DNA of 20,824 nt from Larix sibirica (taxonomy: Eukaryota; Streptophyta; Pinopsida; Pinales; Pinaceae), in assembly GCA_004151065.3 (NCBI GenBank), contig NWUY0300009040.1, positions 76,558 through 97,381 of the forward strand. Reading direction: 5' to 3'. Both the position numbers and the translations under genes were made by a program. A model generated the notes under the pieces. That model was given only the letters and a program-made list of their open reading frames with translations. It searched no databases and was not told the DNA's origin. Shown here one piece after another: positions 2,269 to 17,408 of this stretch. The first letter of the stretch is position 1; the number at the start of each line of letters is the position of its first letter.

Positions 2269-2680
2269 GGATGGAGCCACATGTAGTGTATGAGATTTGC
2301 ACTTGGGTTATACTCATACATGCCTACCCACTAAGAGGTTCATTGTGTGTTCCACTCATGTGTTGCATTCATATATGACCCACACAATAATGATACAATA
2401 CCTTTCAAGAATTGCTCTAATGTGGTTGACCACTTTCCTAAAGTCCCACTCAATTTAGCCTAGATGTGGGACCTCTATGTGATGTATAGTGCTTAGGTGG
2501 GTTTCGTAGGTGCCTTCTCTCCCCTGGTATTTAACCATTGGTCTCTAGTTTGGTTCAATTTTACCCTCAAGGTACCCTTTAGGGGTATTTCCTAACTTCA
2601 TGGGTCAAGTTGGGAGCCTCTTTGTAGGAAGTGTACCACAAGTTCCTAAGGTGTGTTGTATATTTGAATTTGTGTACCAT
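2269..2680. other. Gene-free stretch, possibly LTR-like
   Basis: No coding sequence was recognised after the LINE frame breaks down. The texture (TTAGGTGGGTTTCGTAGGTG, pyrimidine-rich blocks) resembles the U3 of a plus-strand LTR, but no terminus can be fixed. It directly abuts the truncated edge of the large element's left LTR. Confidence 0.3.
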
Positions 2681-3992
2681 TTCAATTTCATATGTTACCC
2701 ATGTATACATTCAATCATTTGAACACATAAAACATTTTTTTTATAATACATAGAATATTAAGAATTAATGAATGGGATAACACGACGACAAACATATCCA
2801 ATCCTTTTACATAAAAGTAACTACATGTTTTCCATGATTCTAGTGTATTTTGTGATACCCATAATGCCAATTGCATCCATTTGCACAAGTGAAATTTAAT
2901 TGCATCCATTTGCATAAGAGGCAAAGATTATTCCCTTTGCATTACAAAATAATGGTTGTAACAACCTTGAAATCCACATAAGAATAACATTCAATTAGTT
3001 CAAAATGCATTCTTGTTAAAATGTTAAATTCTAGATTTTACATTTCTTGATTAAGGACATCATCTTTAGACACAATAGAACCACAAATGTTAATCTTCAA
3101 GAATTGAACAACAAACATTAATTTATTTGTTTGATTAGTGGATGCAGTTGGGGAAATATATCCATTGGAGTGTCTTTCCTCCTAGCCATAGGCACCATGT
3201 CATGTAGGTGTCTCCCTCGTGATGGCCAATGATACAACAAGGGCGAATTTACTAGATATGGCTCTAGTTTTTCTCACAACCCAATTTCTAGATATCACAA
3301 CCAAGGAATTCAATTTTCGACCATTCCAACAACAAAAATCCCACTGAAATAACCTATCTCCCCCCTCAATCTACATAACACAAGGAATGGGATCCACTTC
3401 CCTACTAAACAGTCCCTCAATCTATCCCTCTTTCGTCCAATGCTCTATTGCAAATTGGACAATAAATCTTCATTGTTGGTGTTGAGAATTTCTAGGTGTA
3501 ACTAAGTTTTCCCTTTTCTCTCAGTAATTACACATGTTTAGGAAAAATAAATGGCAGTGTACCCCCTTGGTAGAATGCAGTGTCCTCTTCCTCGAGATCA
3601 ATAAAATACTCTTCCCAAAAGCTTGCATGAACAACATGTGTATTTCCATGAAGCTTGGGAAAATAAAACATGAGACACACAAGATAAAAGGAAAGAAAGG
3701 TTTAGAATAATGACACTTGGACAACAACAATAATATATTACTTCTTGAACTCACCCTACTTACCCACTTATTGGGTTATTGTCCCCATGGTGCTCTTATG
3801 AAGTCATAACCCCAAGGGCACCTTATTATTATATTATTAGTATTCCATATTGATTTCAATATAATCAAATGGTAATTCAATTACCAAACTTACCACATAC
3901 TTACACATCATGCCTTACCAGGATTTGGCTCATCCTTTTGCACTTGGAGCATCATTACACACATCATGTTCAATGTTATCATGGGTGTTACA
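2681..3992 (-). mobile_element. 3' LTR of the large element, outer end lost
   Basis: It matches the right LTR along its whole length with an offset near 11,560. The match includes a 31-base identical run (3488-3518 against 15048-15078) and 18 of 20 bases at its left edge. The minus-strand start is TGTAACACCCATG at 3992. The match stops at 2681, whereas the right LTR goes 97 bases further to its GGGATGTTACA end, so the outermost U5 end of this copy is deleted or replaced. Open frames inside, such as 3521-3754 on the minus strand, are chance. No promoter could be placed with confidence. Confidence 0.85.
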
Positions 3993-4009: not shown

Positions 4010-7000
4010 GGAATCACACCAACCTCGATGTTCCTCTTTCCAGAAATGAGATCCATGTCTTCATTCTTAAATTGCACATGCAATATTATCTTCTTTATTG
4101 TGTACGTTCATAGTTGGTGGCTATCTTGGACACAATGCTTATGTGTTTCCTTTCACTGCTTTGATCACCTCGAAATTCTTATCATTTCAACATATATCTA
4201 TATTAGTCATCAAGAAAAACATGCATGTCGTAACCATTTTTATACAACAACTAATTTTATCCATAGGAATTATCAAATTCATAACTAAAGTATATGTATT
4301 CATAACGCAAGATAAGTTTGTAAATAAACCCAATACTTATGCCTTACTTGATTGTCATGTCTATGGCATTTCTTTCTACAACTCTATTCTCACAAGAGAG
4401 ATTTCATGTAGTGAAACAAAATATGACTACTTATGCATACAATCATTTCAATGCAATATCCACAACAACCCATGAAATGGTCTCATAATTTTGAGACAGC
4501 AATAATTTCCCCGCTTTGGTTTTTAACACATTAATTGCAATGAAATATAACACAAGTATGCATTCACAAAATGTAATCAAACTATATGCCAACATACATG
4601 CGGTATAGATAATCACAACTTGCACACTCCAACTATATTTTATTATTTGTTTTTTATTAGTATTATATTAGTCTTATTTTGTTTGTTTTGTGGGGCACCT
4701 CCCTTCCCCTTCCACTACGTTTATTGTCATTATTTTTATTATTATTATTATGCTAATTAATTAATTTGTATTTTATGTTTTCATTTCACATAATACCACA
4801 TCCTCATGTTGTGCAATCAATCATGATGAGATGGATGGCCACACCAACGCCTCAACACATCATCCAACCACCTCCCTAATACTTGCTTGACCATGTGTAC
4901 ACCTTCTTGTTCAACCCGAACACAACACCATGATTATATGCTTTTAGTGATTTTAAGTATTGGAAAGAAGGTTATAATACATGATACTAATACAAGTAGG
5001 GAGACCATTGTATGCTTGTGAAACACTTTAACCTTTCCCCAAGTCCAACCACACTATGGCCTCGCACATGGTTGTCTCACATGGCACCCATTTTCCTAAT
5101 AGGATCATAAGTCCCAATTTGCCTTGGTTATTGCCTCACAATCAACACAACATGACATGATATTCTATTTCATATGAATGCATAAATAGTTTTTTAAACA
5201 ATATTTACATGTCCAAGGCTTCTTGCTTTTACCATACCCTCACCCGGGTAATTTTCTCACAAATGCATTCAAACAACATAAATATATCAACTTATGATAT
5301 CAAATCGGGATGGAAGGAAATCTTACCAAATTCCTCTTAAGCATGCATGACTAATTTCATGCATGTATGGTTGCCATCAACATCTCTGATGTTACCTAAT
5401 AATTTATTGCCTTATGGGAAATCATATGATCTCTTCACCAAATTATTGGCAAGCATCCTCTTGTCCTCATTCTTTATCATGAGATTGATTGTCATAGGCA
5501 GTTGGATCATCAACATCTTCAATCATGTCCTCAAACATTCCTTGTTATACAACCACGGCAACAATATTGATTATCATGTTATACTCATTGCACATGTAAT
5601 AACATATCAATCTTAACCAATATGTAATATCACATGTATGCTCAAGCATATCTATATGCATTCTACCATGTATTATCTCTCAATATTCCCACTAGTGCAT
5701 ATGCATTCTAGCCATCTTATTTTATTTCATTTATCAACATTCCTATGCTTTAACTATCTATACATGGCAACTTTCTCAATCTCAAGAAATATAAACAATG
5801 CAACAAGAGAATAATCAAGGAATCCTCCCTTCCAATTCCTATGCATAGAATAGGACTCTACAACATAGTTATACTTTTCCATAGGTTTACTACCAATCAT
5901 ACCATAGATCATTCGCTGTGATTTTCTCACATAAGTAGCAATTCACCACATGCATACACATTTATACTTACTATTTTTAAAAACAATCAACTCTACTCTA
6001 CAAACAAAATAAAGTTTAAGGTGAGAAAATCTCCCTAATTAGTATATCTACCTTGTTGGCCACACGCACCATTTACTACTACAAAAAGTTCATTAGCATC
6101 TTGTATCTACCTTTGTTGTCTTGGGCTACCTTCAACTGTCATCTAATTTTGACAAGAGTCTTCGCTCTTGTTTTGAGTTGCCTTTGCATTTTGTTTGACT
6201 CTGGGAATTGTTTCTTGTTAATCACTTTTCCTTGTCAAAGGAAAGAGATCAACATTGATGGGGTCTTAGGAGAATCCCAATATCCCCTCCATTTTTAGAG
6301 AGCTAACACTCCCATTTTTTAGTTTGGATTTTCTTTGTTTGCTCAAATGGGTGAATTCTAGACAATCGATCCTAATATATCCTTGAACATTCAATATATC
6401 TCATTTAAATGCACCACCGCTTGCAAAGGACTATGCAATTTCAAATCATTTAAATAAAGATATTTAAATATTTGAGAAAATAATAGAGCTACCCACAACA
6501 TATATTCGCCTTCTTTTAAGTAATACAGGTACAAGATTAACCATGACTTTGCAATATTAAGGAAAGAAATAAAAGTATGACAAGATTCAAATAAATTTAA
6601 AGGAATATTTCATTTGAGATCAAACAAGTTGAAAAAAGTCACCCTACTCAAGATTCCATTGATTTAGAACCATGCAGAAGTCATAAAAGCCAAATGGATG
6701 CTTAAATAGTTCTTTATGTCAACATTTTAAAACAATATAGATCCCAAGTGTGACAAGTTCAAGATCATCCGAAACAAAGTGGGCTAAGAGAACCTCTATA
6801 AAATCTCAATGACTAATACTTAAACAATAAATTGAAATGCATTCACCCTCAAGGATAGGGATGTGGCTCCCATGAACCAAGAATAAAGTAGGAAATGCTC
6901 GAGAGAAAATAAGAGGAAATTGGTTAGTCCAAGGCTCCTATGTTGTAAAGTATACAAAGAAAAACATAATGGTAGAAGACAATAGGGAGGAAAAGTGAAG

Positions 7001-14144: not shown

Positions 14145-15359
14145 TATTGTAACATCCCCAGTTGCCCAATTTTTTCTCTAATCAACACTATGATATAGCA
14201 TACATAGGCAAATATAAATTAGCAATGGAAATAACATTGCCCAATTCAAGTTAATATGTTACCCATGCATACATCCAATTATTTCAGCACATAAAGTATA
14301 TTTTATGGTGATACTTGAAATATTAACAACTAGCAAATAGGATAACACAACAGCATACATATCTAGTCCTCTTCCATAAAAAATAATAACACTTCTTCCA
14401 TGTTTCTAGTATCTTCTATGATACCCACAATGCCAATTAGATCCATTTGGCATGGCTAAAATTTAATTCACATAACAAAGGTAATATTACACCCTCTGCA
14501 TTAAAAAATAATGGTTGTAAAAGCCTTGAAATATGCATATGAATATTTCTCGCATAGTCTAGAATGCATTCTTGATACATTGCTAAATTTTGGATTTTTC
14601 ATTTCACAATTAAGACATATTCTTTAAACACAATAGGCACATAAATGGTAATCTTCAACAATTAAACAACGATAACAAATTTACTTATCTATTTCGTAGA
14701 TTCACTTGGGGAAATAGCTCCATGGGATCATTTTTCCTCCTAGTCATGAGCACCATCTCATGTAGGTGCCACCCCTGTGTTAGGAAATGAAACAACAAGG
14801 GAAAATTTATTGGTTATGGCTTTGGTTCTTCTCACCCATCCCAATTTATAGATATCATAGCCAACGAATTACATTCCAAACCATTATGATTACAACACTC
14901 CCACTCAACCAACCTCTCTTCCCCCTCATCCCACACAACACAAGGATTATGATCCCATTCTTTGCTAAATAGACCGTAAGGCTATCCCCCTTCCCTACAA
15001 TGCTCCAATGCATACTGGACAAGGAATATTCACTGCTAGTGCCAAGGATTTCTAGGTGTAACTAAGTTTTCCCTTTTCACTTAGGAATTAGCCATGCTTG
15101 GAAACAAGTTACGGTAACACACCCCCTTGAAAAAATGCACTCCCTTCTTCCCCAATATTGAGTAAATATCCTTCCCAAAAGCTTGCATGAATACAACACT
15201 TACATGGAGAGCACATGCCCTTCCATGAAGATTGGGGAAATAAAACATTAGATACACGAGAGAAAAGGATCAGAAGGCTTGGAATAATGACATTTGGGCA
15301 ACAACAATAAAATGGTATTTCTTGAACTCACCCTACTTCTCCACTTGGTTCATTGCCCC

Positions 15360-15373
15360 CATAGTTTTCCTAG
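15360..15373. repeat. Target-site duplication, left copy
   Basis: CATAGTTTTCCTAG, matching CATAGTTCTCTTAG at 17252-17265 at 12 of 14 bases. The uninterrupted sister LTR has a related single copy, CATGGTGCTCTTAT, at the same place. A duplication of 14 bases fits target-primed retroposition. Confidence 0.85.
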
Positions 15374-15390
15374 TATTTTTTTTAATAAAC
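15374..15390 (-). other. A-tail end of the retroposon
   Basis: The minus strand reads GTTTATTAAAAAAAATA and stops at the target duplication. The sequence before it (TTGGGTTTTCCACTGCCCTT) resembles the 3' end of plant L1 elements. This is the 3' terminus of the inserted copy. Confidence 0.8.
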
Positions 15391-15622
15391 AAATAGGATT
15401 TATATTATTAAAGGGCAGTGGAAAACCCAAACAACCTAAACTTAGAAAACATGATAAAAAAAATGATCCAAAATTGCTCTTTTGAGCTAAAGTAGAATAT
15501 ACATTGCTTCAAATAACATAATAGAAATATGTGGCATGAGGCCTTCCTACAATATCTAAAGCTACACTATTGAATAAATTTAGCAAGTAGCCATAAACAA
15601 GAAAAGAGCATGAGAAAACATA

Positions 15623-15844
15623 TCAACCAAATTTATACCCTAAATGGGCCTCCTCTGTGAACACATCATCACACTCCATGCCATTGTTGTATTGAAAGTT
15701 TGGTTTCTCTATTAACACCATAGTTGTTTGTTGCACTGTTTCTTCCTCACCAACCTTGTCTTTCACTGAACTAGTAGAGATAACTAGATGACTTGCAATA
15801 GATTGTGAACCTCTAGGAAACCCCAAGATAATATTGCAATGCAT
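15623..15844 (-). other. Short open frame (73 codons) in the retroposon tail
   Basis: Reads MHCNIILGFPRG and so on to EAHLGYKFG. No family is recognised. It is uninterrupted, acidic in its middle part and lies downstream of the 102-codon frame on the same strand. It may be chance or the last part of a once longer frame in the retroposon. Confidence 0.2.
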
Positions 15845-15917
15845 TTTGAATCATTTGCAAGATTCTCATACTTTGAATTATGCTCTTTCAAAATTGCTCC
15901 ATCACTTCTTGCTTATG

Positions 15918-16226
15918 TTATTTCTTTTCCATATGGATACTTAAGTACTCAATTGCTTGTCTCATTCCCTCTAGTTGTCTATTCATCCTTATAAAAAAAA
16001 ATAACCTCAGTAATTCCTTCTCCCCCATTCTATTTGAAGCTAGAAGGATGATCCATACTAAGGATTGAATAGAAAACCCCAAGCCAAATAGCACACTGAA
16101 GACTAAATAAGCCTTGGGATTCATCCAGTCCCAGTTTAAAATACCCCCCACAAAGGTCATGTTCAACCGTATACCAATCCTTTCTGATGTCCTAAGGATC
16201 TTAGCTGATTCCAATTCAAATTGCAA
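15918..16226 (-). other. Open frame (102 codons) with a hydrophobic segment
   Basis: An intact frame in an otherwise decayed region. It starts MQFELESAKILRTSERIG, has a hydrophobic stretch of about 25 residues around residues 40-65 (AYLVFSVLFGLGFSI onward), then a basic, helical end (LEGMRQAIEYLSIHMEKK). It follows the RNase H remnant by about 500 bases in the same retroposon. I do not recognise it. It could be an accessory frame of the parent LINE or a chance frame. No promoter or start context supports expression. Confidence 0.25.
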
Positions 16227-16747
16227 ATCATAAACTAAACCAAAATAAATATTACCTCTAGGAGAGCAAACACCATACCTCTAACCAACTTGTTGTGATG
16301 AGAAAGAACCTCTAGAAAGTACTAGATTTTCCAAGTGCAACCACCACTGAATATGCATTCTAATAACCTGATCCTACCTCTATTGGCACTACTCTTGTTA
16401 CCTCCTTATGTGCATTCTCTCAAAGCATAAGTGTTTTGACCCTCCTAAGCTTGGCCTTCAAAGATCCACTTCCAGTGACCAAAAAATCCAAGCCATATAT
16501 CCCATCCCTACTAGAGGAGTGGTGTATAAGGGCTACAAATCCCACCATGTTGCAGATTGAAATGCAAGGACCAAAGGGATAGGAGGCATGGGTAGATTTA
16601 GTTCTCCTTCACACGAGTATCTAACTATGAAATAGCTTGCATGAGGGCCAAGATTGTTGTGATGCCATGTGTTGGATTTACTTCCTAACCCATGATATAG
16701 GTGGCTAACATGATTTGAGTTCATAATGTTGTTCATATTAGTCCAAT

Positions 16748-17158
16748 TGGGGTAGCCAAAACCTTTCAAAGGGGCACCCTTTTTTATCAATACCCACGTG
16801 TCCAAGTAGATGGTCTCATTTTCCTTTTGATCTTCCAAACCATTGTTGCTTCTTTGCACATGAAAAAACTTAACTTCATCCATAACTTCTAGATTTATAA
16901 GTATTCTTTGAAAGGCATTGTAAAACAAAGTCCCGTTTTTAAGCATCCTCTTCCTAAATTTATTGATGAAAAGAGGGAGTCGCCTGTATCATGGCATTCT
17001 TTACTTGGTTTGCCTACATTAAAACTAACCCAAGATATAAGGCATATATTTTGTTTGGTCATTTGTAGCAGTTTCCAACTCTCAGAATTTGAATTCTATA
17101 TTTCCTTCGAGGCATATAAGAAACACCCCCTTGCCCCACTACTCTTGCCCCCCTAAAA
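16748..17158 (-). pseudogene. Decayed LINE-type RNase H domain
   Basis: The domain normally removes RNA from RNA-DNA hybrids. Blocks in order on the minus strand are RGARVVGQGGV (in place of the glycine-rich start), ETATNDQTKYMPYILG (the TNNxAEYxALxxG helix), a GDS triplet at 16984-16976, and EVKFFHVQRSNNGLEDQ (the strand and xxNxxAD segment). All lie at the expected spacing for an L1 C-terminal RNase H. The first acidic residue of the DGAS motif is not readable, the helix glutamate is lysine, and AD has become ED, so the domain is dead. Two or more frame changes separate the blocks, and the final 137-codon open frame (16533-16946) covers the last third. It sits directly after the tRNA-like head. 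The family call is firm; the catalytic assignments are by analogy. Confidence 0.8.
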
Positions 17159-17182
17159 ATATTGAGGATGGTACCTAACCTA

Positions 17183-17239
17183 GAGACTTGACCCAAAGAT
17201 TTCATGCTTGCAATTCATAGCTCTCAACCACTCGAACTA
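17183..17239 (-). promoter_or_regulatory. tRNA-like Pol III A and B boxes at retroposon head
   Basis: On the minus strand TAGTTCGAGTGG (17239-17228) resembles a tRNA A box, like the CGAGTGG of tRNA-Leu or tRNA-Ser genes. GGGTCAAGTCTC (17194-17183) matches the B box GGTTCGANTCC at 8 of 11 bases. The starts of the two boxes are 44-45 bases apart, the spacing in a tRNA. The A box lies about 12 bases from the element's 5' end. I could not fold a full cloverleaf, so this is a SINE-type head and not a tRNA gene. Confidence 0.55.
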
Positions 17240-17251
17240 ACCCACTACGCT

Positions 17252-17265
17252 CATAGTTCTCTTAG
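17252..17265. repeat. Target-site duplication, right copy
   Basis: CATAGTTCTCTTAG, the partner of 15360-15373. After it, the LTR sequence resumes (GGAATTTATAACCCCA) in register with the left LTR (AAGTCATAACCCCA). Confidence 0.85.
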
Positions 17266-17408
17266 GAATTTATAACCCCAAGTGCACCTTGTTATTATAT
17301 ATTAATTCCACATACTTACACATCATGTGTCACCAAGATTTGGTTCATCCTTGTGCACTTGAAGCATTAGTACATGCATCATGTTCAATGTTCGCATGGG
17401 ATATTATA

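Follow-up and report, generated by a model that had tools for sequence, protein, structure and literature searches.

The window (the whole 20,824-nt stretch of Larix sibirica DNA analysed here) holds an insertion that joins the 5′ end of a tRNA-type SINE to the 3′ end of an L1-like LINE (Table 1). Element positions are given as nt 1 to 1878 of the minus-strand reading, with nt 1 at 17251.

Table 1 Features of the chimeric retroposon and of its paralogous empty site, in window coordinates
Feature	Position	Strand	Details and basis
Whole chimeric retroposon	15374-17251	minus (sense)	1878 bp; target duplication and paralogous empty site
5′-end target site duplication	17252-17265	minus	CATAGTTCTCTTAG; 12/14 against 15360-15373
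SINE part, 5′ complete, 3′ missing	17156-17251	minus	nt 1-96 of a ~240-bp tRNA-type SINE; profile and alignments
Putative A box	17229-17239	minus	TAGTTCGAGTG; 4/6 SINE copies have TAGCTCGAGTG or TAGCTTGAGTG
Putative B box	17184-17194	minus	GGGTCAAGTCT; 4/6 SINE copies have GGGTCAAGTC followed by T or C
LINE part, 3′ 1.77 kb	15384-17154	minus	begins at 17154 (by eye) or 17145 (profile), at the recurrent start AGGGG.GGCAAG
Broken RNase H (aRNH-like) remnant	16762-17154	minus	three frames; begins after FDG motif; RVT_3 and aligned LINE copies
A8 tail	15376-15383	minus	sequence; 3′ end common to other copies
3′-end target site duplication	15360-15373	minus	CATAGTTTTCCTAG; 12/14 against 17252-17265
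Paralogous empty site	3786-3799	plus	CATGGTGCTCTTAT; within the repeat copy 2677-3985
Direct-repeat copy without the element	2677-3985	plus	partner copy 14241-17400 holds the element

Two copies of an old direct repeat of about 1.3 kb, 74-86% identical, lie 11.56 kb apart in the window, and the one without the element gave the empty site. Positions 2677-3791 pair with 14241-15365 at 74% identity, and 3786-3839 pair with 17252-17304 at 85%; when the first copy is aligned to the joined flanks of the element, it has a single target, against two targets plus the element in the second copy. Because it is this alignment that fixes them, both ends of the element are set with no assumption about the interior. 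The stretch 15374-17251 is a real insertion, bounded as one unit, for which the empty site is stronger proof than the target duplication. A sequence-only reading of the window had derived exact ends from a 14-bp target duplication and an A8 tail; the duplication and the ends are borne out by the empty site and the tail is present, but the duplication itself is not exact (12/14). At random window positions, a duplication of at least 12/14 arose with a frequency of 6.5e-5 with ends fixed and 0.002 when they could shift by ±6 bases. Only the dinucleotide TA separates the A8 tail from the outer target duplication.

We searched the 618-Mb assembly of the same genome (19,862 contigs) with the whole element and obtained 42 rows from the best 40 of 101 candidates: the window, seven rows matching only the head and 34 matching only the body, with no second row carrying both parts. 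One contig, C945, has head and body rows, but they lie more than 100 kb apart. The seven head-only loci (L029-L035) align with one another over ~240 bp, have an A-rich run at the end and form one family. Two of them (L032 and L033, 12.3 kb apart on C945) are identical in SINE and flanks where printed, through either a recent segment duplication or an assembly effect; as these two read the same, we counted six distinct SINE copies. Target duplications exceeded every mismatched control in three of the six (L030, L031 and L034), were not above the best controls in L029 and L032, and were missing from L035. The head-only loci thus have A and B boxes, an A tail and, in 3/6, target duplications, the features expected of tRNA-derived SINEs, and on these sequence features they are a tRNA-type SINE family with putative Pol III transcription. 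One locus, L035, carries an additional, weaker SINE head at 586-669 (E 1.4e-7).

A profile built from the six copies, with the window excluded, aligned its positions 3-96 (out of 240) with 17249-17156; the sequences searched were the window and 38 others, and E was 3e-18. The window head agrees with the SINEs at 58-61 of 76 positions, and the SINEs agree among themselves at 60-67 of 76. By the profile, the window element does not qualify as a whole SINE unit, having only nt 1-96 of ~240 and lacking the 3′ 60%. The sequence-only reading had pointed to A and B boxes near the 5′ end, and these score 14/17 against a box consensus; elsewhere in the window one pair scores 15 and several score 14, and 0.07%, 0.15% or 2.8% of window positions, depending on the consensus chosen, score as high as the fixed 5′ end of the insertion. 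Box scores alone therefore do not settle the matter, and we assign the head to a SINE because a SINE family of the same genome matches it. A tRNA or SINE search of the head, which the same reading had proposed, gave a divided answer: ARAGORN and Rfam matched no tRNA in the window, and a tRNA gene or an intact tRNA head was rejected for want of a hit, while the SINE profile did match. Folding of the head was also discarded as a signal, being no better than in shuffles (z of 0.00, 1.03 and 0.81 at the three lengths folded). The top-scoring A/B-box-like pair of the window lies at 2199-2254 on the minus strand, has no Rfam tRNA or SINE-profile match and is probably due to chance.

Besides the window, 30 body loci were fetched, and a 3′ end and A tail are common to many body copies. 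Four loci (L023, L026, L027 and L036) share ~1.7 kb of LINE sequence further upstream of the RNase H region; a profile made from the first three of these finds L036 with E 8.5e-302 and, among the other L009-L045 loci, nothing beyond one 6-bit match in L010. The SINE profile has no match in any of the four, so that LINE copies run on upstream with no SINE head, an observation that the sequence-only reading had named as a refutation. L023 has, upstream of RNase H, a LINE-type reverse transcriptase (RT) stretch and an FVDD sequence that we take to be an RT motif, both of which are lacking in the window copy. For L026, one of ten pieces gave an RVT_1 match that falls short of the cut-off (E 0.0093) and is close to unrelated chance matches in the same search (E 0.039 and 0.048).

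The RNase H remnant was matched to Pfam RVT_3 at E=0.019, short of the curated cut-off, by a hand-joined read-through of its three frames; the separate frames had no Pfam match, and the assignment is backed by aligned LINE copies. Those copies place the RNase H N-terminus, FDG.SKGNP, 5′ of where the LINE part of the window starts. The FDG motif holds the first catalytic Asp of RNase H, and because the LINE part starts downstream of it, the window copy never had this residue. A working RNase H gene is ruled out by the three-frame pieces, the stops and the start past the FDG motif, and the largest open stretch is 16533-16988. The remnant starts ~30 nt past the B box, close to the roughly 25 bases previously estimated. 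Taken together, the comparisons identify the body as the 3′ end of an L1-like LINE that starts inside the C-terminal RNase H domain. Protein searches with the read-throughs gave no relevant hit, two matches at E 0.055 and 0.63 being unrelated; for the 3′ half of the element Pfam gave at best DUF4391 (E 0.0019, short of its cut-off), and ten window open reading frames yielded just three weak Pfam matches (E 0.13-0.23). Among the other loci, L016 has a LINE 5′ part fused to a downstream RNase H point (~sense 3935-3955), making a LINE without its RT region, and L010 (sense 5046-5965) and L019 (sense 3374-3887) have insertions within LINE-derived copies.

The point at which the LINE part starts is shared, with 14 of the 30 other body loci beginning at the same few bases. 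We aligned 19 sequences at the RNase H start (the four full LINEs, the window and the 14 others), and the 14 short loci begin within a few bases of the boundary between CC and AAGGGGTGG, with unrelated flanks; L010 begins ~15 nt later. For the other 12 body loci (L009, L013, L015-L018, L020, L021, L037 and L041-L043), the start lies further in, is lost at the end of a contig or gave no clear position. A duplication test was applied to the 10 of 14 short loci that have a recognisable 3′ end (L025, L028, L039 and L045 were left out), and eight of these 10 have target duplications at the common start, where only 0-3 of 26 mismatched pairs score as high; L012 and L024 fail this test. As expected, none of three full LINEs has a target duplication at the site.

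As the first search had used the window as its query, we ran a second one with a 901-nt query from the full LINE L026, which has the site inside it at position ~401. This search returned 44 rows (best 40 of 57 candidates), of which 13 start at query 401-419, 14 pass through the site (one being L026 itself) and 17 start further in. The 13 rows starting at the site come from 12 contigs that were all absent from the whole-element search list, and include two row pairs with equal coordinates and scores that may be duplicates. All four new loci fetched from this search start at the site and have no LINE or SINE profile match. Without a shuffled control, L050 has an 11-bp exact duplication just past its tail, L048 and L049 have none, and L047 has no 3′ end that was found. 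Five rows (on C14643, C14633, C14236, C7748 and C743) match L026 query 373-507 at 72%, and perhaps represent a younger repeat with an RNase H fragment.

Phylogenies were reconstructed from a 5′ block (16 rows; L009, L019, L020, L038 and L039 excluded) and a 3′ block (20 rows; L018, L037 and L038 excluded). The LINE L027 groups with the short copy L040 in both (support 99/97 and 87/74 in the 5′ and 3′ trees, respectively), the LINE L023 groups with the short copy L025 in the 5′ tree (97/96), and the LINE-bearing L016 falls inside the clade of the window in the 3′ tree (100/99). Well-supported branches force at least three changes of label per tree, and in neither tree are the LINE and short labels more clustered than shuffled labels. 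A full-length tree, in which L038 and L039 form long branches and L027 has an odd composition, rejected a LINE clade (p 9e-55). The placement of LINEs among short copies rules out a single short master family. Because LINEs interleave with short copies, and because a 5′ part once lost to truncation is not restored, the break recurred at the site; it arose several times, at least three on our reading of these trees.

Immediately upstream of the site, CC precedes A or T in 4/4 LINEs, which resembles the template-switch consensus GCC*A/U described for Magnaporthe (PMC2104539). In 25-nt windows, the hairpin at the site, which might stall the enzyme, is in the top 1.5% for two LINEs but ranks at 6% and 25% for the remaining pair; longer windows make it less unusual (4-32%). 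A G-quadruplex stop was rejected on the sequence, because the G-rich run is part of the copies themselves, whereas a stop would need it on the other side of the site. We tentatively suggest, as a reading that is plausible but somewhat short of probable, that insertions begin repeatedly, across LINE lineages, at a fixed site within the RNase H coding region. Either a sub-genomic RNA, made by an internal start or by cleavage at the site, would be retroposed as a unit, or the RT would regularly halt there, giving uniform ~1.77-kb copies and a place at which foreign RNA can be joined.

The junction of the two parts was found once. A 121-nt junction query gave a single candidate, the window itself, in a search where common words are passed over and just the best candidates are scored. 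At the junction the SINE match stops at nt 96 and the LINE match begins at nt 98 by eye or nt 107 by profile, and AGGGGGGCAAGAG, from nt 98, matches by eye the start of L014, AAGGGTGGCAAGAG; because the copies are ~23-35% diverged, the position is uncertain by ~10 nt. By eye, GGG occurs near the junction in both partners. The window has TTTTT at nt 93-97, where most SINE copies have TATTGTG, and this may be a later change. The SINE profile found no SINE sequence in the window past SINE nt 96. A second placement fits 13 nt, GTACCATCCTCAA, to SINE nt ~180-193 and beats the colinear one for two of six copies, so that an internal SINE deletion may have occurred; our initial reading of the head, a ~105-nt internal deletion, was replaced by the colinear match.

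These features are those of a SINE/LINE chimeric retrogene: one duplication and an A tail enclose both parts, the sense 5′ part begins at the 5′ end of another RNA, and the 3′ part is a 5′-truncated LINE with the LINE 3′ end. The proposal that a tRNA-type SINE head is joined to an L1-like RNase H region is upheld by the SINE profile and the LINE copies, and the empty site supports their insertion as one unit. Of the two origins that the sequence-only reading had offered, a composite SINE-LINE family or a template-switch product, we favour the latter. Both parts are in sense orientation within the one duplication, and because the SINE is complete at its 5′ end and cut at its 3′ end and the LINE is the reverse, the element has the described signature of template switching. 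We therefore consider it probable, at roughly 70%, that 15374-17251 is one long-dead insertion by LINE machinery in which the template switched from LINE RNA to SINE RNA, a single event as judged from one copy. Target-primed reverse transcription would have started on the A tail of the LINE RNA, and the enzyme would have copied ~1.77 kb up to the site within RNase H where copies of this LINE often end. There it may have moved onto a SINE RNA, perhaps by way of the common GGG, and copied it up to the Pol III start at the SINE 5′ end. What normally results at the site would be a 5′-truncated LINE copy, but in this case it would have been a template switch.

Two separate events could also produce this arrangement: a SINE already in place would have been the target of an ordinary short LINE copy, with loss of the SINE 3′ part by deletion at the target or between the A tails. 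The LINE part starts as the ordinary short copies do at their 5′ end and so could be one of them, and both tails are A runs that offer a natural site for deletion, but this course requires two insertions in the same orientation and a deletion reaching the outer target duplication, and the window has just TA between tail and duplication and no SINE match past nt 96; we regard it as unlikely. Ligation of a SINE RNA fragment to a LINE RNA 3′ fragment ahead of reverse transcription is one of the two routes, with template switching, that Law and Burns name for U6/LINE-1 chimeras (PMC13174262), and a fixed 5′ end of the LINE RNA would account for the 14 short copies too. Nothing here demands such a ligation, however, and the GGG seen by eye in both partners fits copying better, if weakly, so that we hold this route to be improbable indeed.

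A still slimmer chance attaches to Pol III read-through from a resident SINE into an old LINE piece, followed by retroposition of the RNA, or to membership of a composite family. That the insertion begins at the SINE 5′ end, where Pol III would start its transcript, would suit either, but a resident SINE would keep its 3′ end and A tail ahead of the LINE, and the match stops at nt 96. T runs terminate Pol III transcription, and those in the LINE part should have stopped the polymerase, with the caveat that the TTTTT at nt 93-97 may have arisen later. A composite family would show several copies with the same junction, but neither the junction query nor the best 40 of 101 whole-element candidates held a further one.

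SINE-LINE chimeras are already described in primates and in a fungus. According to Law and Burns (2026, PMC13174262), 452 Alu/LINE-1 chimeras are reported in primates, and in these, as in the template-switch product proposed here, a SINE adjoins a 5′-truncated LINE, mostly in sense there, with one duplication and an A tail. The primate Alus are mostly full length and the LINE lengths mirror those of all LINE-1 copies (PMC13174262), whereas here only the first 96 nt of a ~240-nt SINE are present and the LINE part has a recurrent starting point. In Magnaporthe grisea, the MINE (WEIRD-MGL) and Mg-SINE chimeras likewise fuse a 5′ RNA to a 5′-truncated LINE, with 10-20 bp duplications and with shared chimerization sites that have the consensus GCC*A/U and upstream hairpins (Gogvadze 2007, PMC2104539). 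There, 31 of 33 chimeras involve the noncoding RNA WEIRD and microhomology was not found (PMC2104539), while the present case is a tRNA-type SINE in one copy.

Plant Ta11-type L1 LINEs carry a C-terminal archaeal-type RNase H, and oomycetes too have LINEs with such a domain (PMC5348765). The order found here, with RNase H downstream of RT-type sequence, is that of the Ta11 type, and the arginine rule (PMC5348765) is matched by eye by HVQRSNN in the window and YIRRLHNGLAD in L026; the window copy departs from it in lacking RT and the FDG motif, and the likeness is one of motif and domain order only. The Sadhu retroposons of Arabidopsis, some chimeric copies of which are ascribed to template switching (PMC2848041), resemble these elements by description, without a sequence link, in being ancient, diverged, non-autonomous and A-tailed, but the short copies of this genome are the 3′ ends of LINEs. 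Among the matches listed from open-access texts (titles and abstract starts, which is not proof of absence), there was no plant tRNA-SINE/LINE chimera at a recurrent site.

The locus offers a clean SINE-LINE chimera with its empty site within the same window, and a LINE whose copies repeatedly begin at one point within a coding domain, which provides a uniform class of copies, together with LINE relatives, for testing why copies stop or switch there. Elsewhere in the window, at 1510-1765, an 87-88-bp unit occurs in three tandem copies that are 68-86% identical.
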